From NCBI GenBank assembly GCA_017462485.1, contig JAFTRA010000041.1, forward strand, positions 1 to 33,666: a stretch of DNA of 33,666 bases, written 5' to 3'. Shown piece by piece: positions 5,244 through 24,285 of this stretch. The translations under genes and the position numbers were made by a program. The notes beneath the pieces are model-generated. The model was not told the origin of the DNA. It saw nothing but the letters and a program-made list of their open reading frames with translations, and did not search any database. Source of the stretch: Clostridia bacterium. GTDB lineage: Bacteria; Bacillota; Clostridia; Oscillospirales; CAG-272. Within the stretch, counting starts at the first letter, position 1, and every line of letters begins with the position of its first letter.

Positions 5244-6185
5244 CTATTTAAAGCACGTCATAAACGTACTGATAACTTTTTCTCGGTCAACCTTTTTTGC
5301 CAGCGTGTGCTTTTTATCAAGGTTGAATCCCTTATAAAATTCGGGATTTAAATAAGCCTTTGTGTATGCGGAAACGTTGAGAGTCATACCTCTTGCCGCG
5401 CCGTCGGTTATAACGGCAACGGGAGCGCTATCGCACTCGCAAAGCGTCTTGTCACTAGCGTAGAGAATCGCAAGCGGGTCGTGAAGAACTCCGAGCTTTC
5501 CGTGAGAGAGTGCGGATTTCCAAGCCTTGTAAAGACCGCTTACGTATTCTGCCGCAGGGCTTTTCGAGGTGGCGCAAATTGCTTCGTCATCACACTTTTC
5601 TATTTCAAGGAGATGCGTTACGTCAGCGCCAAGGCAGCTTATATTTTCAAGACTGTCAAACATTATTTTTGCCGCCTCAACGTCGCACATAACGTTCCAA
5701 TCTGCATATTGCTTAAAATATGCGCCGCCCATAATAACGACCTCTTTTGCGAGGGATAAGGCATTCTCGTCCTTCTCGATAACTCCGGCGATATTGGTAA
5801 AAGGTCCTATCGCGATAACGGTTAGCTCTTTACCGTATTTTTTGCAGGATTCAATAATGAAATCTCTTGCGTCGTCTTCACTCATTGAGTCGGAAGCATA
5901 AAGTTCGTTTTCCAAATCGGGAGTGTATTGGCAAAGATGCGGATATTCTCTTTTTTCCTTTGCGATAGGAGTTGAATATCCTGCGAAAACCGGAACGTTT
6001 TCATATCCGTTTCCGTAAAGCTTGAGAAGCTTTTTGCATATCCTTGCACGCTCCTCGGTATTTTCAAAAACGGTAGTAATACCGATTATATCGTAATTGA
6101 GCTTCATAGCAAGAAGCAGGGCAAACGCATCGTCTATATCGTCGCCTATATCTGTATCAATTATCACCTTTAATCTGTCACTCAT
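5244..6185 (-). CDS. Inosine-uridine preferring nucleoside hydrolase family protein
   Basis: Hydrolyses the N-glycosidic bond of a nucleoside, releasing ribose and base for salvage. The 313-residue protein carries the calcium-binding signature near its start (DTDIGDDIDDAFAL, residues 10-23) and the C-terminal HDPLAIL motif that completes the metal site. The form of the first motif, with one extra residue relative to the classic DTDPGxDDA, is seen in a Firmicutes-type subgroup. The exact nucleoside cannot be read from sequence. It is the last gene of a tight operon, starting two bases before the end of the pseudouridine synthase gene, and is followed at once by the bidirectional terminator. 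Confidence 0.92.
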   Translation of the reverse strand: MSDRLKVIIDTDIGDDIDDAFALLLAMKLNYDIIGITTVFENTEERARICKKLLKLYGNGYENVPVFAGYSTPIAKEKREYPHLCQYTPDLENELYASDSMSEDDARDFIIESCKKYGKELTVIAIGPFTNIAGVIEKDENALSLAKEVVIMGGAYFKQYADWNVMCDVEAAKIMFDSLENISCLGADVTHLLEIEKCDDEAICATSKSPAAEYVSGLYKAWKSALSHGKLGVLHDPLAILYASDKTLCECDSAPVAVITDGAARGMTLNVSAYTKAYLNPEFYKGFNLDKKHTLAKKVDREKVISTFMTCFK

Positions 6186-6186
6186 T

Positions 6187-7035
6187 TTAAAAATCCGCCT
6201 CTTTGCTTAATATTATTCTTTCATTTGTTACGGGGTGGGTGAATTCTACCGATTTTGCGTGCAGTCTGTAATTTTCGTCCCCCGAACGCTCTCCGTAGAG
6301 AAAATCGTTAACGAGAGGGTGACCGATATAAGCCATATGCACTCTTATCTGATGCGTTCTGCCCGTGTGGAGCGTTATTTCAAGGAGCGAGTCACCCGAG
6401 TCAAGAATCTTTACGACCTCGTACTCGGTTACGGCTCGCTTGCCGTCGGGGCGAACGACTCTTTTTACGTTTCCCTCGCATTCACGCTCGATAGGAGCGT
6501 CAATAATATCGTGGCTAGGCGAGGGAACTCCCGTCACAATGGCCGAATATTTCTTTATATATCCGCCGCTCTTCATCTCGCGCGATAATTTATCGGCAGA
6601 AAGAGGGTCCTTCGCTATAATAACTATTCCACTCGTGTCTCTGTCAAGTCGGTTTATAGCCCTGAAAACAAATTTTTCGGGCGCAAAATACGCCATAACG
6701 CCCTCGGCAAGCGTCGGAAGACTGTTTCCGCGCGAAGGGTGAGTGGGCATATTCCTCGGCTTGTTTATCGCAATTAAATAATCGTCCTCATAAACGATAT
6801 CGAGGGGAATATCAATAGCTCTTATATTTTCGCTTTGGGCCTCGGGGAGCAAAACCGTAACCGAGTCGCCCGTATGAACGATGGCCCTCATATGAACGTT
6901 CTCACCGTTTATAAAAACTCCACCGAATTTCACCTTTTTTATGAGGGATACCGAAAGAGAAAGACCTCTTTTTAAAAAATCGAGAATTTTTATTCCGTCA
7001 AATTTCTCTTCAACTGTGGATTCTATCTTCCTCAT
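6187..7035 (-). CDS. RluA-family RNA pseudouridine synthase
   Basis: Converts specific uridines in rRNA or tRNA to pseudouridine. The 282-residue protein has an N-terminal S4-like RNA-binding segment (about 15-65) and the catalytic domain with NRLDRDTSG at about 128-136, whose first Asp (about 131) is the catalytic residue; the usual His before RLD is Asn here. The K-Y-x-A (KKYSAIV) and R-x-H-Q-I-R-V-H (GRTHQIRVHM) motifs are present. A longer upstream reading is possible but the start at 7035 is preferred: GGAGAG at 7045-7040 sits before it and the stop of the upstream gene overlaps this region. The exact target (RluB/C/D type) cannot be assigned. Confidence 0.93.
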   Translation of the reverse strand: MRKIESTVEEKFDGIKILDFLKRGLSLSVSLIKKVKFGGVFINGENVHMRAIVHTGDSVTVLLPEAQSENIRAIDIPLDIVYEDDYLIAINKPRNMPTHPSRGNSLPTLAEGVMAYFAPEKFVFRAINRLDRDTSGIVIIAKDPLSADKLSREMKSGGYIKKYSAIVTGVPSPSHDIIDAPIERECEGNVKRVVRPDGKRAVTEYEVVKILDSGDSLLEITLHTGRTHQIRVHMAYIGHPLVNDFLYGERSGDENYRLHAKSVEFTHPVTNERIILSKEADF

Positions 7036-7036
7036 A

Positions 7037-7861
7037 TCACTCTCCGAAAACTCTTGCGTGAACGATAAGGGGGAAGTGGTCGGAGCTTGCGTATGCTTCG
7101 TCAGAGGTGTCAACCTCAAACGAGTCGATAGCAACGTTTTTATGCTCGGTAACGAAAAAGTGGTCAAGCGTTCTTACGGGCTCGCGTCTGCCCTCAGCGG
7201 TATAAATAGCGTTTTCGTTACGCGGTGGATAGTCGTGATGCGTTAAGGTATCCGTACTGATGGGCGCAATCTCACGCACGTCAAGAAGCTGCTCCTTTAA
7301 GAAAAAGTAAGGCTCTTCGCCCTGGTCAGCGTTAAAGCCGCAGTTGAGGTCTCCCATAGCGAAAACGGGGATATCGTATTTATCCTTGATTCTCTTTATA
7401 TTTTCAAGAAGCACCCTTGCGTTATCTATTCTTTGAAGATTGTCATTTTCACCCCTTGCCATCCACCAGAAATGAGTGGAAATGATACCGACTCTTACCT
7501 TGGTTTCATTTTCTTCAAATACGGCGTAGGTCAGGGACTTGGAATCCAAGTCGTTGAGCCCGGGGTAAGCAAAAAATCCCGATTCTATAACTGTAAAGCG
7601 GTTTTCTTTGTAGAAAATGGGGGTAAAGTTAAGGCGGCCTGCCTCTGTTTTCACCTCTTTATATTCAGGGGCGAGAACAGCTTCAATATCAACGTCTCCA
7701 TTACGGCTTGTTTTGGGGTTGCATTCCTGGAATGAGACGAAGTCCGCATCGTGATAAGAGATAAGCTCTCCAATAAGAGCATTTCTGTTGGAAATTGTAG
7801 ACATTCCGGGCATATTACCCCAAATATTATGGTCGTATATAGTAATCTCTGTTTCTTTCAC
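7037..7861 (-). CDS. Endonuclease/exonuclease/phosphatase family protein
   Basis: A 274-residue metal-dependent phosphodiesterase of the DNase I-like fold. Visible active-site elements are N12 in DHNIWG, E46 in SFQEC, His in ISTHFWW (about 130), the Asp/Asn pair in MGDLNCG (171 and 173) and SDHFPL near the C-terminus. No signal peptide is seen, so it probably acts in the cytoplasm. The substrate could be DNA, RNA, a phospholipid or a sugar phosphate; sequence alone does not decide. The start codon is GTG with GAGG eight bases upstream. It lies 14 bases after the FAD oxidoreductase and one base before the pseudouridine synthase. Confidence 0.85.
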   Translation of the reverse strand: MKETEITIYDHNIWGNMPGMSTISNRNALIGELISYHDADFVSFQECNPKTSRNGDVDIEAVLAPEYKEVKTEAGRLNFTPIFYKENRFTVIESGFFAYPGLNDLDSKSLTYAVFEENETKVRVGIISTHFWWMARGENDNLQRIDNARVLLENIKRIKDKYDIPVFAMGDLNCGFNADQGEEPYFFLKEQLLDVREIAPISTDTLTHHDYPPRNENAIYTAEGRREPVRTLDHFFVTEHKNVAIDSFEVDTSDEAYASSDHFPLIVHARVFGE

Positions 7862-7875
7862 TTGATAAACCTCAA

Positions 7876-9162
7876 TTAAAGATGTCCGCCTTCAATCTCG
7901 GCGGCATTTTTACCGTGTATAATAACCGTTCTGTCGTCGGGAACGTATTCGTCGGGGAAGTGAACCATAACGTTTTCACTTTCAAGCTTTGCTTGAAGAC
8001 GTCTTATATCAACGTCTGCGATAGCGCATCCCTCGTCAATCGCCTGGCAAGCCGCCTCTGCCGCCGCCTGACCCGTGATTATAGCAGGGGGAATAACTCT
8101 TATAACGTCCCAGCCGTAGCCCGAAGCCGAAGCGCTTCTTCCTGCGGTAGCCATATTGGGATAGTCACGTCTCGTAAGGGCGCGGAGCGGTACCTCGTAG
8201 AGATAATCTCTGTGCTCAAAGTCGTTTATAGCGCATACCGAGTCGTCAAAATGACGGTAAGCGTCAGCAACCGTAAATGTATAATCACCGTTAAGATGGC
8301 AGGTAGTTCTGAACTGCGGCATATGAGGTATCATAGCCACGTCGCGTGAATTTCTCTCGGACTCGGTAGCCTTAAGCTTTTCAAGCATAACCATCTGGTT
8401 TGTAACGAGGTAATCGGTAACCTCTTCGGCGGTAAGTCCCGACCACTTCGGAACTCCCTCGGGCTGCCTGTCACCCCAAAGGCTTGCTCCGTAGCCGCCA
8501 ATACTCGAGTAAGCGTCGCGAATATTTCCGCTCTCGGCAGCCTTCTTGCAGCCGTCAAGACTAATCTGTTTGCAGGAATAGGTTGCGAAGTTTTCGCCCG
8601 CAGTATGAGGAACGCCTGCCGAACGCATAACGTCAAGGTCACCCGTGGTGTCAATAAGCATCTTGCAGCCGTAAAATTCCATACCCGACTTGCTGTGAGT
8701 AACCACTCCGACGCATCTGTTACCGTCCATAACGGGCTCTGTGGCAACAGAGTCGTAGAGAAGCTCCGCGCCGCTTGCGAGCAGGTCCTCGGTCATCTGA
8801 AGGGCAAATATGTAAGGTGGAAATCTGTTCGTATATCTTTTGAGGGTGGGCTCGTTCGGCTCACCGTTCTTCCATAACGACGGTATGGTATCGTAGCCGT
8901 AAAGCGAGGCTTCCTTTACCCACTTATCGCAAAGACCGAAAATTATCTGCTTTCCCCGTCCGTTGCAAAGCGGAACGAAAAGATTTATAAGTCCCAGAGT
9001 TGCAAGACCGCCGAGAATGGTGGATTTTTCAACAAGAAGCGTAGATTTTCCGTTATTTGCCGCGCTTATAGCCGCCGCAACACCGGCAACGCCGCCACCC
9101 GTAACGATAACGTCGTATTCTTTTTTCATTTTAAGCTCTTTTGATAAAGTAATAGAATTCAT
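7876..9162 (-). CDS. FAD-dependent oxidoreductase
   Basis: A 428-residue flavoprotein with the dinucleotide-binding motif VTGGGVAGVAAA near residue 20 and the second FAD-contact region ending in IDTTGDLDVMRSAG and GRSASASGYGWDVIRV. It resembles the FAD_oxidored group of Clostridia and Bacteroidetes, often found in sugar or polysaccharide loci, whose substrates are largely unknown. The start at 9162 is chosen because GGAGG lies seven bases upstream; an in-frame ATG at 9195 has no such site. It is the first gene of the operon leading to the nucleoside hydrolase. Confidence 0.88.
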   Translation of the reverse strand: MNSITLSKELKMKKEYDVIVTGGGVAGVAAAISAANNGKSTLLVEKSTILGGLATLGLINLFVPLCNGRGKQIIFGLCDKWVKEASLYGYDTIPSLWKNGEPNEPTLKRYTNRFPPYIFALQMTEDLLASGAELLYDSVATEPVMDGNRCVGVVTHSKSGMEFYGCKMLIDTTGDLDVMRSAGVPHTAGENFATYSCKQISLDGCKKAAESGNIRDAYSSIGGYGASLWGDRQPEGVPKWSGLTAEEVTDYLVTNQMVMLEKLKATESERNSRDVAMIPHMPQFRTTCHLNGDYTFTVADAYRHFDDSVCAINDFEHRDYLYEVPLRALTRRDYPNMATAGRSASASGYGWDVIRVIPPAIITGQAAAEAACQAIDEGCAIADVDIRRLQAKLESENVMVHFPDEYVPDDRTVIIHGKNAAEIEGGHL

Positions 9163-17229: not shown

Positions 17230-17904
17230 ATGTTCAATATAATGGTTGTTGACGATGATAAAAACACAAGAATGTTTCTTGAAGCCGTATTAAAGGACGC
17301 AGGCTATACCGTTATGCTCGCGAGCAACGGAGCCGAGGCGCTCGAGCTTCTTGACAAGGAGCATATCGACCTAGTCGTTCTGGATATTATGATGCCGAAA
17401 ATGGACGGCTACGAGTTTACGAAGAGCGTGCGCGAGGCTGATAATAATATACCGATACTTATGGTCTCCGCAAAGCAGCTCCCGATAGATAAGCATAAGG
17501 GCTTCCTCGTCGGCACAGACGACTATATAACGAAGCCGATAGACGATGAGGAAATGCTTTACAGAATAAAGGCGCTTCTTCGCAGAGCGAGGATTGCGAC
17601 CGAAAGGAAAATCGTCATAGGCAAGGTAACGCTGGATTACGATTCGCTTACCGTAACCCGAGAGGACGACGTTCAAGAGCTGCCCCAAAAGGAGTTTATG
17701 CTTCTTTATAAGCTGCTCTCGTACCCCGGGAAAATATTCACGAGAATTCAGCTTATGGATGAAATATGGGGAGCTGAAAGCGATACGGGCTGGGAAACTG
17801 TTACCGTACATATAGGAAGACTGCGTAAGAGATTCGACTCTTACCCGGAGTTTTCAATAGAATCGGTCAGAGGACTTGGATATAAGGCGGTCAAAAAGAT
17901 ATGA
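17230..17904 (+). CDS. OmpR/PhoB-family response regulator
   Basis: A 224-residue DNA-binding response regulator. The receiver domain has the acidic pair D8/D9, the phosphorylated Asp at 52 (VVLDIMMPKMDGYE), S80 and K102 (YITKPID). The C-terminal winged helix (about 125-224) shows the ELPQKEFMLLYKLLSYPGK and VTVHIGRLRKRF signature. AGAGGT precedes the ATG. It overlaps the sensor kinase gene by four bases and forms a coupled pair with it. Confidence 0.95.
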   Translation: MFNIMVVDDDKNTRMFLEAVLKDAGYTVMLASNGAEALELLDKEHIDLVVLDIMMPKMDGYEFTKSVREADNNIPILMVSAKQLPIDKHKGFLVGTDDYITKPIDDEEMLYRIKALLRRARIATERKIVIGKVTLDYDSLTVTREDDVQELPQKEFMLLYKLLSYPGKIFTRIQLMDEIWGAESDTGWETVTVHIGRLRKRFDSYPEFSIESVRGLGYKAVKKI

Positions 17905-18989
17905 AAAAAATTACGGATTTTGCAAGCGCAAAGAGCAAGCAGCGCTTTTCACTCACGTTTACCTTTGCGACGGTTGTATTTATAGTTCTTCTTGCGGCAA
18001 TTCTCTTTGCGGCAATTCTTCTTTTCGTATTCTCAAAGACGGGAGTCATAGGCGGCTTTGAAGATGAGCTTTCGCTCGGAACTATTCTACTCTGTGTGCT
18101 TGCGTTCAGTATTATATCGGGAGCTATAATATCGCTGCTTCTTGCGCTTATACCCCTGAAGCCCCTGAACCGCTATATAGACCATATGAATAAGCTTGCC
18201 GAGGGCGATTTCAAGGTGCGCCTTAAATTCAATTCCTCGTGGGCGGACCATAAAACGTTTAGAGAAATCAGCGATAGCTTCAATAAGCTTGCCGAGGAGC
18301 TTGAAAACACCGAAATGCTGAGAGCTGACTTTATAAACAATTTCTCGCACGAGTTCAAAACACCGATAGTTTCGATAGCGGGCCTTGCGAAGCTCGTAAA
18401 TCGTGGCTCTTTAACAGAGGAAGAGAGAACTCGTTACCTCACCGCAATAGAGGACGAATCGCTGCGGCTTGCGGCTATGGCGACCAACGTTCTGAATCTT
18501 ACAAAGGTTGAAAACCAATCAATCCTTACGGGAACGAAAGTCTTTAATCTCTCCGAGCAGCTTCGCTCGTCGGTGCTTTTGCTCGAAAACAAATGGGTGA
18601 AAAAGGACGTAAACCTCGAGATTGATTTTGACGAATTTTTCGTTGAAGCCGACGAGGAGCTTTTAAAAGAGGTTTGGATAAATATACTCGACAATGCGAT
18701 AAAATTCACCTCACACGGCGGCACGGTAGCCATTAAAATCGAGGATACGGATAGAAGTCTCTCTGTTGCGATAAGTAATACCGAAAGCGAGATATCCGAC
18801 GAGGATAAAAAGAAAATCTTCGCTAAATTCTACCAGGCAGATAAGTCTCACGCCGCCGAGGGAAACGGAGTCGGACTTGCGATAGTAAAGAAAATCGTCG
18901 ATTTACATAAGGGAAATATTGAGGTTTTCAGCGAAAACAGAGTCGTAAACTTTAAGGTGACCGTACCTAAAAAACAGTCTAAATTATAA
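17901..18989 (+). CDS. Sensor histidine kinase
   Basis: A 362-residue membrane histidine kinase. Two membrane segments (about 20-45 and 60-85) are separated by only about 15 residues, so it lacks an extracellular sensing domain. A HAMP linker (about 85-140), the phosphorylated His150 in NNFSHEFKTPIVSIAG, the N box NILDNAIKF and the G boxes (ending GNGVGLAIVKKIVDLHKG) follow in order. The short loop suggests sensing within the membrane, or through a partner protein. The signal is unknown. Its closest downstream genes, across a terminator, are the acyl-phosphate lipid cluster. Confidence 0.94.
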   Translation: MKKITDFASAKSKQRFSLTFTFATVVFIVLLAAILFAAILLFVFSKTGVIGGFEDELSLGTILLCVLAFSIISGAIISLLLALIPLKPLNRYIDHMNKLAEGDFKVRLKFNSSWADHKTFREISDSFNKLAEELENTEMLRADFINNFSHEFKTPIVSIAGLAKLVNRGSLTEEERTRYLTAIEDESLRLAAMATNVLNLTKVENQSILTGTKVFNLSEQLRSSVLLLENKWVKKDVNLEIDFDEFFVEADEELLKEVWINILDNAIKFTSHGGTVAIKIEDTDRSLSVAISNTESEISDEDKKKIFAKFYQADKSHAAEGNGVGLAIVKKIVDLHKGNIEVFSENRVVNFKVTVPKKQSKL

Positions 18990-19010
18990 ATAAAGCGTAT
19001 AAATCAAAAG

Positions 19011-19047
19011 CGAAGCTTCCGCATAAAAAGTGGGAGCTTCGTTTTTT
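19011..19047 (+). terminator. Terminator after sensor kinase
   Basis: CGAAGCTTCC (19011-19020) pairs with GGGAGCTTCG (19032-19041) with one G-T pair, followed by six T. Confidence 0.85.
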
Positions 19048-19152: not shown

Positions 19153-20787
19153 ATGCAGAGACGGACGATAGACGGAAAATGCTTTGCCGAAATGCTTCAC
19201 GGCGGAGCGGTAATGCTTTCCGAGCATGCTCAGGAAATAAACGATTTGAACGTATTTCCGGTGCCTGACGGAGATACGGGAACGAATATGACCAAAACTC
19301 TTGAGGGCGGACTTTCGGAGATTTCCTCTGATAGCGAAAGCATAGGCGAGCTTTCGGGCAATTTCGCTCACGGAGTATTGCTTGGAGCAAGAGGCAATTC
19401 GGGCGTAATTCTTTCGCAGATTTTTGCCGGAATTAACGAGGAGCTTTCAAAATATGATAAGGTAGGAGCAAAGGAGCTTGCGCGTGCGTATAAGAATGGT
19501 ATTAAGAAATCCTATTCCGCCGTTCAGAATCCCACCGAGGGAACGATACTCACCGTTTTCCGAGAAAGCACCGAATATGCGGCAGATAATATTAACGACG
19601 AGTCGAGCATAGAGGATTTCTTCAAGCTTCATATAGAAAAGGCGAGGCATTCGCTTGCCAAAACCAAGGATTTGCTCCCCGCTCTTGCGGAGGCTGACGT
19701 GGTTGATTCGGGAGCGGCAGGCTACCTTTATATTGTAATGGGAATGTATGCCGTGCTTACGGGTGAGCTTGAGGGAACTATATACAAAAGCGTAACCGAA
19801 AACCCCACGGAAAAGATAGATATTAACCTCTTCACACGTGATTCAAGGCTTGAATTCGGTTATTGCACCGAGTTTTTGCTTCGTCTTACCACCGATAAGG
19901 TTGACCCCGACAGCTTTGAGATTGCGAGGGTGCTGTCAGTCCTCGAGGAGCTTGGCGGTGAGAGCGTCGTAGCCTATAAGGAGGGTGATATAGTAAAGGT
20001 CCACGTGCATACCTTTAAGCCGGGAGACGTTCTCTCGCGCGTTCAAGCGTTCGGAGAATTTCTGACGGTCAAAATAGAGAATATGTCGCTCGGTCACTCG
20101 GAAAGCGCAAAGCCAAAGGAGAAGAAAAAATTCTCGGTGCTTACGGTTGCCTCCGGCGAGGGAATGAGCGCCCTGTTCTCTGATATGGGAGCAGACGAAA
20201 TAGTTGCGGGCGGTCAGACTGCAAACCCCTCAACCGAGGAGTTTATAACAGCCTTTAAGAAATGCGACTCGGAGCATATTATAGTTCTTCCCAACAATAA
20301 GAACGTTATCCTTGCCGCAAAGCAGGCTGCCGAGATGTATAACGACGCTGAAATTCATATAATTCCGACGAAGAATCTTATGCAGGGCTACGGAGCGCTC
20401 TCGGTTATAACACCCGGAATTACGGATATCAACGCCCTCGTTCAAAGCATAGAAAGAGCGGCGGAGGGGGTTGTCGGCAGCGAAATCACAAGAGCCGTGC
20501 GTGACGTAACGATTGGCGGTAAGCAAATCCACGCGGGCGACTATATTGCCATAACAGACGGTGAAATAAACGCCGTAGCTGAAACTGCTGAGGCAGCGGT
20601 TATGAATATGCTTTCCGAAATAGGTATGGACGACTATGAAATTATAACTCTATTCGTCGGACGTGAGGTTAGCGACGCAAGAAGAGTCGAGCTTACTGAG
20701 CTTATTGAGGAGTCTTATCCCGACTGCGAGCTTGAGGTTTATATCGGCGGTCAGGACGTTTATGACTATATGATAGCCGTTGAATAA
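19153..20787 (+). CDS. fakA: Fatty acid kinase catalytic subunit FakA-like (DAK2/DegV-fusion)
   Basis: Transfers phosphate from ATP to a fatty acid held by a DegV/FakB partner, making acyl-phosphate. The 544-residue protein has the full family build. An N-terminal DhaL/DAK2 nucleotide domain (about 10-200) has NVFPVPDGDTGTNM, with D39 and D41 as likely magnesium ligands, and GARGNSGVILSQ. The middle domain has C238, H284 and H286, matching the Cys/His/His metal site described for FakA. A C-terminal DegV-like domain (about 310-544) completes it. GGAGG is four bases before the ATG. It opens the five-gene block ending at 24205. Confidence 0.93.
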   Translation: MQRRTIDGKCFAEMLHGGAVMLSEHAQEINDLNVFPVPDGDTGTNMTKTLEGGLSEISSDSESIGELSGNFAHGVLLGARGNSGVILSQIFAGINEELSKYDKVGAKELARAYKNGIKKSYSAVQNPTEGTILTVFRESTEYAADNINDESSIEDFFKLHIEKARHSLAKTKDLLPALAEADVVDSGAAGYLYIVMGMYAVLTGELEGTIYKSVTENPTEKIDINLFTRDSRLEFGYCTEFLLRLTTDKVDPDSFEIARVLSVLEELGGESVVAYKEGDIVKVHVHTFKPGDVLSRVQAFGEFLTVKIENMSLGHSESAKPKEKKKFSVLTVASGEGMSALFSDMGADEIVAGGQTANPSTEEFITAFKKCDSEHIIVLPNNKNVILAAKQAAEMYNDAEIHIIPTKNLMQGYGALSVITPGITDINALVQSIERAAEGVVGSEITRAVRDVTIGGKQIHAGDYIAITDGEINAVAETAEAAVMNMLSEIGMDDYEIITLFVGREVSDARRVELTELIEESYPDCELEVYIGGQDVYDYMIAVE

Positions 20788-20876
20788 AAGGCTACGACGA
20801 TAAATTAAGCGTATTTCACCGTACTAAACATTGTAAATTTAGCCGAACCAACCTAAGTCGAATACGTTTTAAGAGA

Positions 20877-20897
20877 CGCATTTTTCGTATAAATGCG
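20877..20897 (+). other. Small hairpin before plsX
   Basis: CGCATTT (20877-20883) pairs with AAATGCG (20891-20897). There is no T run, so it is not a clear terminator. It is the only structure seen in the 152-base gap and may control the ratio of fakA to downstream message. Confidence 0.35.
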
Positions 20898-20939
20898 CCA
20901 AAAAGTCTTGCAATATTTAACATTAGAGGTATTAGCGAT

Positions 20940-21932
20940 ATGAAAAATCAGTATAAAATAGTTATAGATACTAAGGGCGCGGATAAGGGCCCCGAAATGA
21001 TTATAAGAGGCGCGCTTCTGGCTCTTGATAAATACCCCGAGCTTTCGGTGCTTCTCGTGGGTGACAGTGAGTTGATTTCAGAGGAGTGCAAAAAGCAGGG
21101 AGCGCCTATAGAAAGAATCGAGATACTTGAAGCTCCCGGCACTATTACTAATTATGACAGTCCAGCGGCGGCACTCTTCGAGAAAACCGATTCCTCTCTC
21201 GTAAGAGCGCTCGAAGCGCTTTCTGCGCGTGAGGACCTCGTAGGACTTATAAATGCGGGTAGCACGGGTGCGCTTATCGCAGGCTCAATGCGTTACCTTT
21301 CCGGGAAGGAGCGAGTGCGTCCCGCCCTTGCGGCAGTTCTTCCCGCGTCAAACGGAGGCTTTACCTGCCTTGTCGATACTGGAGCTACGATAGATTGCCC
21401 CGCGTCAACTCTTCTTCATTTCGCAAGACTCGGCAGAGATTTTATGAAAAATCTTTACAGAATAGATAACCCAAGAGTCGGACTCCTCTCAAACGGAGCA
21501 GAGCCCACGAAGGGAAATAAGGTCGTAAAGGAAGCCCACGTTCTTCTTAATGAAGCTGAGGATATCAACTTCGTCGGCAATATAGAGGGCAACGGCGCGC
21601 TTTCGGGTGATTGCGACGTTCTCGTATGCGACGGCTTTGCGGGAAACCAGGTGCTTAAGGTAACCGAGGGCATAGCAAAGCGTATCATAACCGATATAGT
21701 CAAGTATTCGAAAAAAACGGGTGATGAGAGCCTTATGAAGCTCGTTGGCTATCTTATGGGGATTTACGATTTCAATTCTCTTGGCGGCGGTATAATACTC
21801 GGAACGTCGAAGCCCGTAATAAAGGCTCACGGCGCTGCAAACGAGCAGTCGATAGTCAGCACGGCGGGAATACTTCTGAATCTTGCCGAAAATAAGGAAA
21901 TCTTCGATAAAACAGCATTTGATATTAAATGA
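20940..21932 (+). CDS. plsX: Phosphate acyltransferase PlsX, divergent
   Basis: Interconverts acyl-ACP and acyl-phosphate, the link between fatty acid synthesis and phospholipid synthesis. The 330-residue protein has the family's length and motif order. However, the classic N-terminal DAMGGD appears as DTKGADKGP, and SAGNTGAL appears as NAGSTGAL (residues 106-112), so it is a variant form. LVDTGATIDCPASTLLHFARLG, LLSNGAEPTKGN and the C-terminal GGIILGTSKPVIKAHGAAN are well conserved. AGAGGT precedes the ATG. Fifteen bases separate it from the DegV gene. Confidence 0.93.
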   Translation: MKNQYKIVIDTKGADKGPEMIIRGALLALDKYPELSVLLVGDSELISEECKKQGAPIERIEILEAPGTITNYDSPAAALFEKTDSSLVRALEALSAREDLVGLINAGSTGALIAGSMRYLSGKERVRPALAAVLPASNGGFTCLVDTGATIDCPASTLLHFARLGRDFMKNLYRIDNPRVGLLSNGAEPTKGNKVVKEAHVLLNEAEDINFVGNIEGNGALSGDCDVLVCDGFAGNQVLKVTEGIAKRIITDIVKYSKKTGDESLMKLVGYLMGIYDFNSLGGGIILGTSKPVIKAHGAANEQSIVSTAGILLNLAENKEIFDKTAFDIK

Positions 21933-21947
21933 AAAGAGGAATAGAAA

Positions 21948-22850
21948 ATGAGTAAAATCAAAATTATGTGCACCTCTACGGGCTGCATAGAGTACGCTCC
22001 CGAGCGTTACAGAAATCTCGGTATAGACATAATAAGAGTACATATTTATTTCGAGGACAAGGAGTACCTTGAGGGCATAGGACTTGACCCCGTAGAATTC
22101 TACGCGCGTCTTGAGACTCTTGAGAATCCCAAAAACAATCTTCCGAAAACAGGCCTGCCTACGCCTATCGAGATTAAAGCGCATTATGAAAAGGCAATCG
22201 AGGAGGGATATGACGAAGTCATAGTATATGCTATATCTTCGGGACTTGGCGGAACGTTCAATCAGCTCTCGGTCGTGGCAAAGGAATTTTCGGACAGAAT
22301 AAAGATTCACGTGGTAGATACCAAGCTCACCGCTTTTGGAGAGGGACTTCTCGCTATAAAGGCGCAGGAAATGGTTAATGCGGGCAAGAGCGCGGAGGAA
22401 ATTCTTAAGGAAACCGCTTGGATGATGAAGCGCCAGATATTTATGGGCGTTGACGGTAAGCTTGACTATCTTATCTACAACGGCAGACTTAAGGGCGGTA
22501 AGGCGTTTATGGGCCAGATGCTCAAAATCTGCCCCGTAGTTCACTTTAACGAGCTTGGAGAGTGCGTTGCGCTTGAGTCGGTAAGAACACAGAAAAAGGC
22601 GCTCATACGTACCTGTGAGATACTCAAAGAGAAAATAGGGGACAGAAGCCCCGATGATTATATCCTCTTCCACGTTTATACGGGTCCCTCGCTTCTCGAA
22701 ACGCTTCTTCCGATAGAGGAAAAGTACGGAATCAAGACCAACCACGAGGACGTAATAATGTCCCCCGTCAGCGGAAGCCATAACGGACCATGGCTTGCGG
22801 GCTATGGCTATTTGCCTCTGCGCCGTGACGACGAGCCTCTGGAGGACTAA
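21948..22850 (+). CDS. DegV-family fatty-acid-binding protein (FakB-like)
   Basis: Binds a fatty acid in a buried tunnel and presents its carboxylate to FakA. The 300-residue protein keeps the three functionally important positions described for FakB proteins: Ser97/98 in AISSGLGGT, Arg180 in YNGRLKGG, and His278 in SGSHNGPWLAG. Its start (CTSTGCIEYAPE) departs from the usual DSxxDL opening, and the TSQPS loop is TGLPT, so fatty acid specificity may differ from known FakBs. AGAGGA precedes the ATG. Its stop abuts the start of the GNAT gene with no gap. Confidence 0.93.
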   Translation: MSKIKIMCTSTGCIEYAPERYRNLGIDIIRVHIYFEDKEYLEGIGLDPVEFYARLETLENPKNNLPKTGLPTPIEIKAHYEKAIEEGYDEVIVYAISSGLGGTFNQLSVVAKEFSDRIKIHVVDTKLTAFGEGLLAIKAQEMVNAGKSAEEILKETAWMMKRQIFMGVDGKLDYLIYNGRLKGGKAFMGQMLKICPVVHFNELGECVALESVRTQKKALIRTCEILKEKIGDRSPDDYILFHVYTGPSLLETLLPIEEKYGIKTNHEDVIMSPVSGSHNGPWLAGYGYLPLRRDDEPLED

Positions 22851-23981
22851 ATGGTAGAGATTAAAAGAGTCGAAACTAAAAGAGACGTAAAGGAGTTTAT
22901 CGAGTTTCCCTTAAGGCTTTACCGCGGATGTGAATATTTCGTTCCGCCGCTTTACGCAGATGAAAAGAAGCTTATCCTTTCCGGCGGCAATACGGATATA
23001 GCCGAGTCGGTATTCTTCATTGCCGTGCGCGACGGAAAAACCGTTGGCAGAATACAGGGAATTTTGCATAAGCAGTATAACGAGCTTCACGGTGAGAAGC
23101 GTATCAGATTTACGAGATTTGACTCGATAAACGACACCGAGGTTTCACAGGCTCTCTTTAAAGCCCTTGAAAAATGGGGAGAGGAGCGCGGAATGACTGC
23201 TGTATGCGGTCCTCTTGGATATAGTGACCTTGACCGAGAGGGACTTCTTATCGAGGGATTTTCGGAGAATTCCACCTTTGAGGAGCAGTATAACTACGAA
23301 TACTATGCTACGCTTCTTGAGAATTCGGGATATGAAAAGGAAGTCGATTGGCTCGAATTTGAGCTTCGCGCACCCGAAAAGAAAAACGATATGCTGAAAA
23401 GGGTTGCAGAGCGAGCTCTCGAGCTGAATAAGCTTCATATAGCTCAAACCAATATGTCAAAGCGCAAATATATAGAGAAGTACGGTGACAGCTTCTTTGA
23501 ATGTCTTGACGAGTGTTACAGTAAGCTATACGGCACCGTGCCGATTTCCCCCGAAGCTAGAAAAGAGCTTATCGACCAGTTTTTGCTTATCATCAATATC
23601 GAGCTTGCCGTTTTTATCTGCGACGAGAGGGAGAGGGTAGTGGCGTTCGGGCTTTGCTTCCCCGCAATAGGTGACGCTGTTAAGAAAAGCGGCGGCAGGC
23701 TTACGCTCCCCACGCTTATAAAGCTTCTTAAGCTCACAAATCGTCCAAAGGTTATGGACCTCGGACTCGTAGCGGTACGCCCCGAATATCAGAACTCGGG
23801 TGTCAATGCCGTGCTTATAAACGGTATTGTTGAAATGCTCTCCTCGGGCAAGATTGAGAAATGCGAAACCAACCTCAATTTAGAGACGAACACCGCAGTA
23901 ATAGCGCAGTGGAAGTATTTCACTCAAAGGCAGCATAAGAGAAGACGCTCTTATATAAAAACAATAGAAAGTGAGAAATAA
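22851..23981 (+). CDS. GNAT-fold N-acyltransferase-like protein (YghO-like)
   Basis: A 376-residue protein with an N-terminal part (EFPLRLYRG...YFVPPLYADEKK) shared by a widespread family of uncharacterised GNAT-related proteins. It has conserved CGPLGYSDLDREGLLIEGF (about 119-137) and NYEYYATLLENSGYEKEVDWLEF, and ends in a classical GNAT acyl-donor loop region, GLVAVRPEYQNSGVNAVLI. Members are annotated as N-acetyltransferases without proven substrates. Immediate contact with the DegV gene and only two bases to the ACP gene suggest the donor may be an acyl-ACP or acyl-phosphate rather than acetyl-CoA. That is inference; it could also be an unrelated passenger. Confidence 0.82.
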   Translation: MVEIKRVETKRDVKEFIEFPLRLYRGCEYFVPPLYADEKKLILSGGNTDIAESVFFIAVRDGKTVGRIQGILHKQYNELHGEKRIRFTRFDSINDTEVSQALFKALEKWGEERGMTAVCGPLGYSDLDREGLLIEGFSENSTFEEQYNYEYYATLLENSGYEKEVDWLEFELRAPEKKNDMLKRVAERALELNKLHIAQTNMSKRKYIEKYGDSFFECLDECYSKLYGTVPISPEARKELIDQFLLIINIELAVFICDERERVVAFGLCFPAIGDAVKKSGGRLTLPTLIKLLKLTNRPKVMDLGLVAVRPEYQNSGVNAVLINGIVEMLSSGKIEKCETNLNLETNTAVIAQWKYFTQRQHKRRRSYIKTIESEK

Positions 23982-23983
23982 AA

Positions 23984-24205
23984 ATGCTTGATAAATTAAA
24001 GGAAATACTCGGCAAGGTTTTGCCCGACGTTGATATGGACACTGTAACCGAGGAAACGAAGCTTATAGACGACCTCGGCTTCGACTCCCTCGCTCTTATG
24101 ATGATGTCTATGGAAATCGAGGACGCGTTCGGCTTCAAGTTCAAGGAATTTGTAAGATTTGAAAGCGTTGGTGACGTGGCAAAATATCTCGAAAGCAGAA
24201 TATAA
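23984..24205 (+). CDS. Acyl carrier protein
   Basis: A 73-residue acidic four-helix carrier. The phosphopantetheine attachment serine is Ser35 in DDLGFDSLALM, and the following EIEDAFGFKF is typical of ACPs of fatty acid type. It is not next to fabD/F/G genes, so it may be a second, dedicated ACP that serves the PlsX and GNAT genes before it. It is the last gene of the operon, ahead of a strong terminator. Confidence 0.95.
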   Translation: MLDKLKEILGKVLPDVDMDTVTEETKLIDDLGFDSLALMMMSMEIEDAFGFKFKEFVRFESVGDVAKYLESRI

Positions 24206-24247: not shown

Positions 24248-24285
24248 AACGCCCCCGGAAAGCTCTCCGGAGGCGTTACTTTTTT
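24248..24285 (+). terminator. Terminator of the acyl-phosphate operon
   Basis: AACGCCCCCGGA (24248-24259) pairs with TCCGGAGGCGTT (24266-24277), six-base loop, then a T run. Confidence 0.92.

Follow-up and report, generated by a model that had tools for sequence, protein, structure and literature searches.

Ceramide synthesis in proteobacteria involves a protein family known under several names (YghO, CC_1154, Aca, CerS, bCerS). The yghO gene ECD_02850 of Escherichia coli was given as the counterpart of Caulobacter CC_1154, among the genes required for dihydroceramide biosynthesis, and its product might be an N-acyltransferase (PMC9386255); CC_1154 was named cerS (PMC11324152) and bCerS was located in the cytoplasm as a peripheral-membrane protein (PMC11087976). 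In an E. coli strain that retains the neighbouring genes, yghO adjoins genes for the sphingoid-base enzyme Spt, an acyl carrier protein (ACP), an NAD(P)-dependent oxidoreductase and a fatty acyl-AMP ligase. In Bacillota, phospholipids can be supplied by the FakA/FakB-PlsX-PlsY-PlsC route; the formation of acyl-phosphate by FakA and FakB and the exchange between acyl-phosphate and ACP by PlsX are established for these families (PMC10146087), and in Enterococcus faecalis an ACP encoded beside plsX, AcpB, is reported as the better acceptor from acyl-phosphate (PMC6509188). Here we describe a run of five genes (fakA, plsX, fakB, a GNAT gene and an ACP gene) in a Clostridia bacterium of the family CAG-272, order Oscillospirales (assembly GCA_017462485.1). 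It lies on contig JAFTRA010000041.1, whose 33,666 nucleotides were analysed whole and are called the window. We propose, with a probability of roughly 0.55, that the five genes provide a second line of acyl activation with an end-user of its own, leading from exogenous fatty acid to an N-acyl lipid that is probably ceramide-like.

The run shares with the YghO/CC_1154 setting a full-length homology of the acyltransferase (the comparison was made with YghO), as well as an ACP gene and a fatty-acid-activating system close by. It differs in that the two enzymes are only 25% identical, in that the acyl group would be activated by FakA/FakB/PlsX and not by a fatty acyl-AMP ligase, and in that the window's genome has no Spt. 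Like the plsX-acpB pair of E. faecalis, it has a divergent second ACP encoded with plsX, which in E. faecalis is used with exogenous acyl-phosphate; unlike that pair, it includes a GNAT, none being reported in the excerpt of PMC6509188, where AcpB is tied to the regulation of fatty acid synthesis, a pathway that the window's genome seems to lack. The first three protein families are those of the Bacillota phospholipid route, whereas the run, a full additional set, includes a GNAT and has neither PlsY nor PlsC. In the proposed line, FakB would bind a scavenged fatty acid, FakA would phosphorylate it to acyl-phosphate, PlsX would load the acyl group of acyl-phosphate onto the ACP encoded in the operon, and the GNAT would pass it from ACP to an amine, yielding an N-acyl lipid. 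In relatives that carry an Spt-like enzyme, most of them with an adjacent KdsR-like reductase gene, the amine would probably be a sphingoid base and the product ceramide-like; in the window's genome it would probably be a salvaged sphingoid base, as a first choice, or another lipid amine.

The YghO-type GNAT and a second acyl-activation set

All five genes lie on the + strand: fakA (19153..20787), for the catalytic subunit of fatty acid kinase; a gene for a PlsX-like phosphate acyltransferase (20940..21932); a gene for a FakB/DegV-family fatty acid binding protein (21948..22850); the GNAT gene (22851..23981, 376 amino acids), whose product is a putative acyl-ACP-dependent N-acyltransferase of the YghO/CerS family; and the ACP gene (23984..24205). 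Open reading frames (ORFs) and Pfam matches agree with an earlier note on this DNA, which had described the five genes as one run with gaps of 15, 0 and 2 bases after plsX; the fakA-plsX gap measures 152 bases. FakA combines the Dak2, FakA_M and FakA_C domains in one protein and passes TIGR03599 (540 bits, cut-off 396), its score with NF038248 FakA_VfrB (434 bits) staying under the cut-off of 975. PlsX matches FA_synthesis (PF02504, 243 bits) and is slightly below the TIGR00182 cut-off (231.3 against 243.4 bits). FakB matches DegV in Pfam and TIGR00762 (205 bits, cut-off 99.7) and gives 123.5 bits with the FakB1 model, under its cut-off of 350, and the ACP matches PP-binding (PF00550, 38 bits, cut-off 20.8), has the serine of the DSL motif and scores below the cut-off of TIGR00517. 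The altered PlsX motifs singled out in the earlier note are real; they were discarded as a sign of new chemistry, since the same variants (NTG and STG; GGD, GSD and GAD) occur inside the window's own GNAT clade.

Pfam Acetyltransf_1 covers the C-terminal part only of the GNAT (22.5 bits, cut-off 20.7), and NCBIfam finds little. Alignment of the GNAT family profile with E. coli YghO joined 364 columns (hhalign, probability 100, E 7e-42), the single sequences are 25% identical over the whole length (BLASTP, E 4e-34), and the three proteobacterial proteins compared all retain 23 positions that show conservation in 97% or more of the 97 family rows. The GNAT is thus a member of the YghO/CerS-type family by whole-length homology, and it is this homology that suggests N-acylation. 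Among solved structures, none was found that is related to the whole GNAT, the weak matches obtained being to parts of it only.

The window's genome (2.23 Mb, 98% complete) holds two plsX, two ACP, two fakB and two fakA genes. The other plsX (contig C40) sits between GidA/TrmFO-type and ribonuclease III genes, the other fakB-fakA pair (C31) has a MarR-family gene upstream, and the other ACP is encoded on C41; identical residues between the operon copies and these number 118/319 for PlsX, 72/280 for FakB, 226/539 for FakA and 25/72 for ACP. A search for a second plsX and a second ACP, advised in the earlier note as a possible refutation, therefore returned both together with a second fakA-fakB pair, and the only-copy status expected of the PlsX, ACP and Fak genes of an ordinary phospholipid supply cluster is not what this genome has. 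PlsY and PlsC, described as absent, are missing from the operon and present in the genome, where one PlsY and seven matches to the PlsC family (six above cut-off) lie elsewhere. No ketoacyl-ACP synthase was detected in the genome with one family model, at the completeness given above; the same model matched 10 of 14 control genomes. Since no such synthase is detectable, fatty acids are probably scavenged and the organism is probably dependent on outside supply.

Linkage and distribution of the GNAT

Neighbourhoods were compared in 100 loci: 20 came from the 28 GNAT matches found in the order besides the window itself, and 80 were the best of at least 569 loci in a genome collection. Of the 100, 97 were distinct once three repeated contigs had been removed. 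All were gathered via the GNAT and are biased to the window's relatives, some being closely related to each other. Neighbours were counted by six-frame profile search, and a partner had to be on the same strand and within 5 kb of the GNAT. FakA was found near the GNAT in 52 of the 97 loci, FakB in 65, PlsX in 44 and ACP in 38; at least one of these was present in 68 loci and all four in 29 (40/57 and 17/57, respectively, for loci with at least 4 kb on both sides). A chance FakA neighbour within 5 kb is expected in about 1% of cases by our own estimate, assuming about two FakA genes per 2 Mb. With one or more partners retained near the GNAT in 68 of the 97 related loci, the five-gene run is unlikely to have arisen by chance, and the linkage of the GNAT is probably more than that of a passenger. 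The suggestion in the earlier note that the acyl group is handed to an amine is partly supported: this linkage, the second copies and the YghO/CerS-type GNAT agree with a flow that would run to acyl-ACP and on to an N-acyltransferase.

Several gene orders occur: FakA-PlsX-FakB-GNAT-ACP (the window type, spirochaetes included), FakA-FakB-GNAT-PlsX-ACP, GNAT-FakA-FakB and FakB-GNAT-PlsX-ACP. The ACP gene is directly 3' of the GNAT gene in most window-type loci, and in L103 and L125 the GNAT and ACP genes are the only ones of the set within the flanking DNA examined. The nearest relative among the matches listed is L058, from an Oscillospiraceae metagenome-assembled genome (MAG), with the same five genes, 76% identical. 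In a quick tree (SH-like approximate likelihood-ratio support only, with 34 of its 97 inner branches left open in the drawing), window-type loci belong to a single group of 23 rows (support 93), which includes three FakA-FakB-GNAT loci as well; the remaining operon types belong to another of 54 rows (support 95), which includes GNAT-only loci as well. Three loci of one genus (L037, L038, L039) have no plsX between fakA and fakB, at similar spacing; in L037 the fakA-fakB gap holds a 109-residue ORF (5265-5591) with a lipoprotein-like start, as judged by eye, and no Pfam match. Five clusters of other neighbours recur in at least 6 of the 97 loci, each named by Pfam from one member: a loose ABC-transporter cluster (13), scattered and on both strands, a TetR-family regulator (11), a histidine kinase (7), a response regulator (6) and a small Cro/C1-type helix-turn-helix protein (6).

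Within the order, the GNAT is present in 27 of 197 genomes. In the window's family it occurs in 3 of the 13 listed genomes, and the other two copies (G042, G167) are divergent and stand without the operon, so that the operon has a patchy distribution and its transfer between lineages is possible. The survey of GNAT and ACP linkage called for in the earlier note showed partners kept in most of the 97 loci and the whole operon missing from the other 12 listed genomes of the family. At least two strong FakA copies were found in 13 of the 14 operon genomes tested (G019 has one) versus 0 of 19 genomes without the GNAT; one of seven other GNAT genomes has two. A ketoacyl synthase is present in 1 of 21 GNAT-bearing genomes tested versus 12 of 19 without the GNAT (Fisher p 1e-4, uncorrected for kinship), four of the 19 having been picked for their Spt and some of the 21 being less than 90% complete. 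This tie is not tight, because 4 of 10 genomes of the window's family that have no GNAT are also without the synthase. G167, a 99% complete genome of 1.6 Mb with a divergent GNAT, gave no plsX, FakA C-terminal domain or ketoacyl synthase, and G086, which has the GNAT and an Spt-like enzyme, gave no FakA C-terminal domain or ketoacyl synthase.

These data bear on an explanation already raised in the earlier note, according to which a duplicated Fak-PlsX-ACP set feeds PlsY and PlsC in ordinary phospholipid supply and the GNAT is a passenger that modifies something unrelated. It retains some weight, although we hold it to be unlikely. The PlsY and PlsC-family genes of the genome favor it, and a cell without ketoacyl synthase would need a Fak-PlsX-ACP supply in any case; moreover, the operon plsX is the sole plsX found in G076 and G130, and the GNAT stands apart from any Fak, PlsX or ACP gene in 29 of the 97 loci, two points that also tell against the line we propose. 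It is opposed by the complete second set elsewhere in the window's genome, by the joint occurrence of GNAT and Fak genes across several rearrangements (in loci collected by GNAT) and by the membership of the GNAT in a family of long-acyl N-acyltransferases.

Sphingoid-base enzymes and the acyl acceptor

Of the 197 genomes of the order, 26 encode an Spt-like enzyme whose identity to the one in genome G015 is 51% or more. Compared with E. coli Spt, Kbl and BioF, the G015 protein shows 43.8%, 34.1% and 33.5% identity, respectively, and a KdsR-like gene is adjacent to 21 of the 26 Spt-like genes (L169-L194; G015, at L162:7650-9610, included), some of them in genomes without the GNAT, and to none of four weaker homologues. 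Nine of the 27 GNAT genomes have the enzyme (p 0.003). By GNAT group, 8 of the 10 genomes in the sister operon group, to which the window does not belong, have it (p 1e-6), versus 18 of the 187 remaining genomes of the order, as does 1 of 11 genomes with divergent copies; 4 of the 6 genera of the sister group have it, and in 6 of its 8 Spt-bearing genomes the Spt-like gene adjoins the KdsR-like one. The groups were drawn up with the data already in view; G028, G065 and G109 were placed later on a second tree, which agreed, and G044, with a split GNAT, was placed by gene order and similarity only. In L075, a contig of a spirochaete MAG, the sequence begins within plsX (so fakA is not seen), and FakB, GNAT, ACP, NfeD, SPFH and Spt-like genes follow in line, the last 1.5 kb past the PlsX-FakB-GNAT-ACP run, the only such case in the 97 loci within the flanking DNA examined. 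The genes separating ACP from the Spt-like gene there (L075:2865-4240) are those for NfeD and SPFH/Band 7 proteins. An acceptor can be inferred for the Spt-bearing group only.

Several observations weigh against the proposed line. Spt is missing from the window's genome: the one homologue there, 60.6% identical to E. coli Kbl and above the glycine C-acetyltransferase cut-off, is Kbl, and its gene adjoins one for a protein 66% identical to E. coli Tdh. We therefore rejected the idea that the window's operon is an outright ceramide operon; without Spt, the amine must be salvaged or different. None of the six order genomes in the window's own GNAT clade has an Spt-like enzyme, and 17 genomes have one without the GNAT (by a single-sequence GNAT search). 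The identity of the Spt-like proteins is itself qualified: that of G130 is nearly as close to Kbl (38.2%) as to Spt (39.8%, BLASTP), those of G015, G130 and L075 have SerpalmtaseCFB as best NCBIfam model at 511-532 bits, under the cut-off of 640, and the reductase adjoining the G015 gene has 3-ketodihydrosphingosine reductase as best model at 225 bits, under the cut-off of 400. The KdsR-like gene is not adjacent to the Spt-like gene in G076 and G130, and none was found in the 6 kb of L075. With an identity to YghO of only a quarter, the acceptor of the window's GNAT may well differ from that of YghO-type enzymes. A dedicated ACP is not universal, since PlsX and ACP are lacking from some operons, among them 3 of the 97 loci and that of G109, a member of the window's clade. 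Finally, independence is overstated by the p-values, given that kinship links the genomes and that loci were chosen for their GNAT and their nearness to the window. An ORF with an exact 56-residue internal repeat (L160:4060-4650) was observed within a few kb of the kbl-tdh pair in the window's genome.

The missing Spt-like enzyme, in the window's genome and in the five other order genomes of its clade, would also suit a GNAT that acylates an amino acid or amino sugar, so that the product is an N-acyl amino acid or a similar small molecule and not a ceramide. Also in its favor, no biosynthetic enzyme recurs beside the module, none being among the clusters that reach at least 6 of the 97 loci. 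We regard this alternative as doubtful, since the closest characterised relatives of the GNAT work in ceramide synthesis, the sister group co-occurs with Spt-like enzymes, and an Spt-like gene lies near one window-type run (L075). It is improbable that the GNAT uses acyl-phosphate directly, as PlsY does, with ACP and PlsX serving phospholipids: FakB is its commonest partner, and nine distinct FakA-FakB-GNAT loci (one of them, L123, with just 1 kb of downstream DNA), four GNAT-FakA-FakB loci and L041 have no PlsX or ACP nearby, but GNAT-ACP pairs occur without nearby Fak genes (L103, L125), the ACP gene usually follows the GNAT gene directly in window-type loci, and GNATs are not known to use acyl-phosphate. 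In L041 the GNAT frame is split by a stop (7004-8119), FakA and FakB remaining.

Boundaries of the operon and its significance

Terminator-like hairpins flank the run on the + strand. The first, with a U run (19006..19046, -24.7 kcal/mol, z -7.6), separates fakA from response regulator and histidine kinase genes (17230..18989, + strand, Pfam), a possible regulator, whose families also occur near the GNAT in 6/97 and 7/97 related loci, respectively; the second, followed by a U run (24248..24277, -18.9 kcal/mol, z -3.5), lies 3' of the ACP gene. The 152-base fakA-plsX gap has no excess structure (z -0.54), so that fakA to ACP are likely to be read on a single transcript. A simple terminator and promoter scan of the window listed neither hairpin, probably because pairing in the first stem takes in the T run and the second stem has an interruption; it gave four terminator-like sites, all on the - strand (6.5 in shuffles), and no excess of promoters (8 versus 7.2 in shuffles). 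No known RNA element reached its gathering score in the operon. Elsewhere in the window, a transposase with an rve integrase core lies near the contig end (32445-33587), and a 566-residue ORF without a Pfam match at 1e-5 precedes a DNA ligase gene (310-2010).

In a limited search of titles and abstract openings in open-licence PubMed Central, none of the papers listed joined a ceramide-synthase-type GNAT to fatty acid kinase. Predictions of Spt-like enzymes already extend to 40 phyla (PMC11334938), so an Spt in such bacteria would not be new by itself, and sphingolipids of Bacteroides and Porphyromonas are reported to suppress host inflammation (PMC11087976). A wider and more tentative picture, which we think possible but would not yet favor, is that gut Clostridia and spirochaetes living on outside fatty acids share a kinase-fed ceramide line in which a YghO-type enzyme acylates sphingoid bases. 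One group would make these bases with an Spt of its own, often accompanied by KdsR, and the window's group would salvage them from the diet, the host or neighbouring cells; sphingolipids would then be reached by an acyl-kinase route, unlike the AMP-ligase route of proteobacteria. Apart from the operon, it looks plausible from the adjacent Spt-like and KdsR-like genes that uncultured gut Clostridia make sphingolipids. If the proposed line is correct, uncultured gut Bacillota and spirochaetes would gain a sphingolipid-like synthesis tied to fatty acid kinase, and the keeping of a second PlsX and ACP by bacteria that seemingly do not make fatty acids would be explained.

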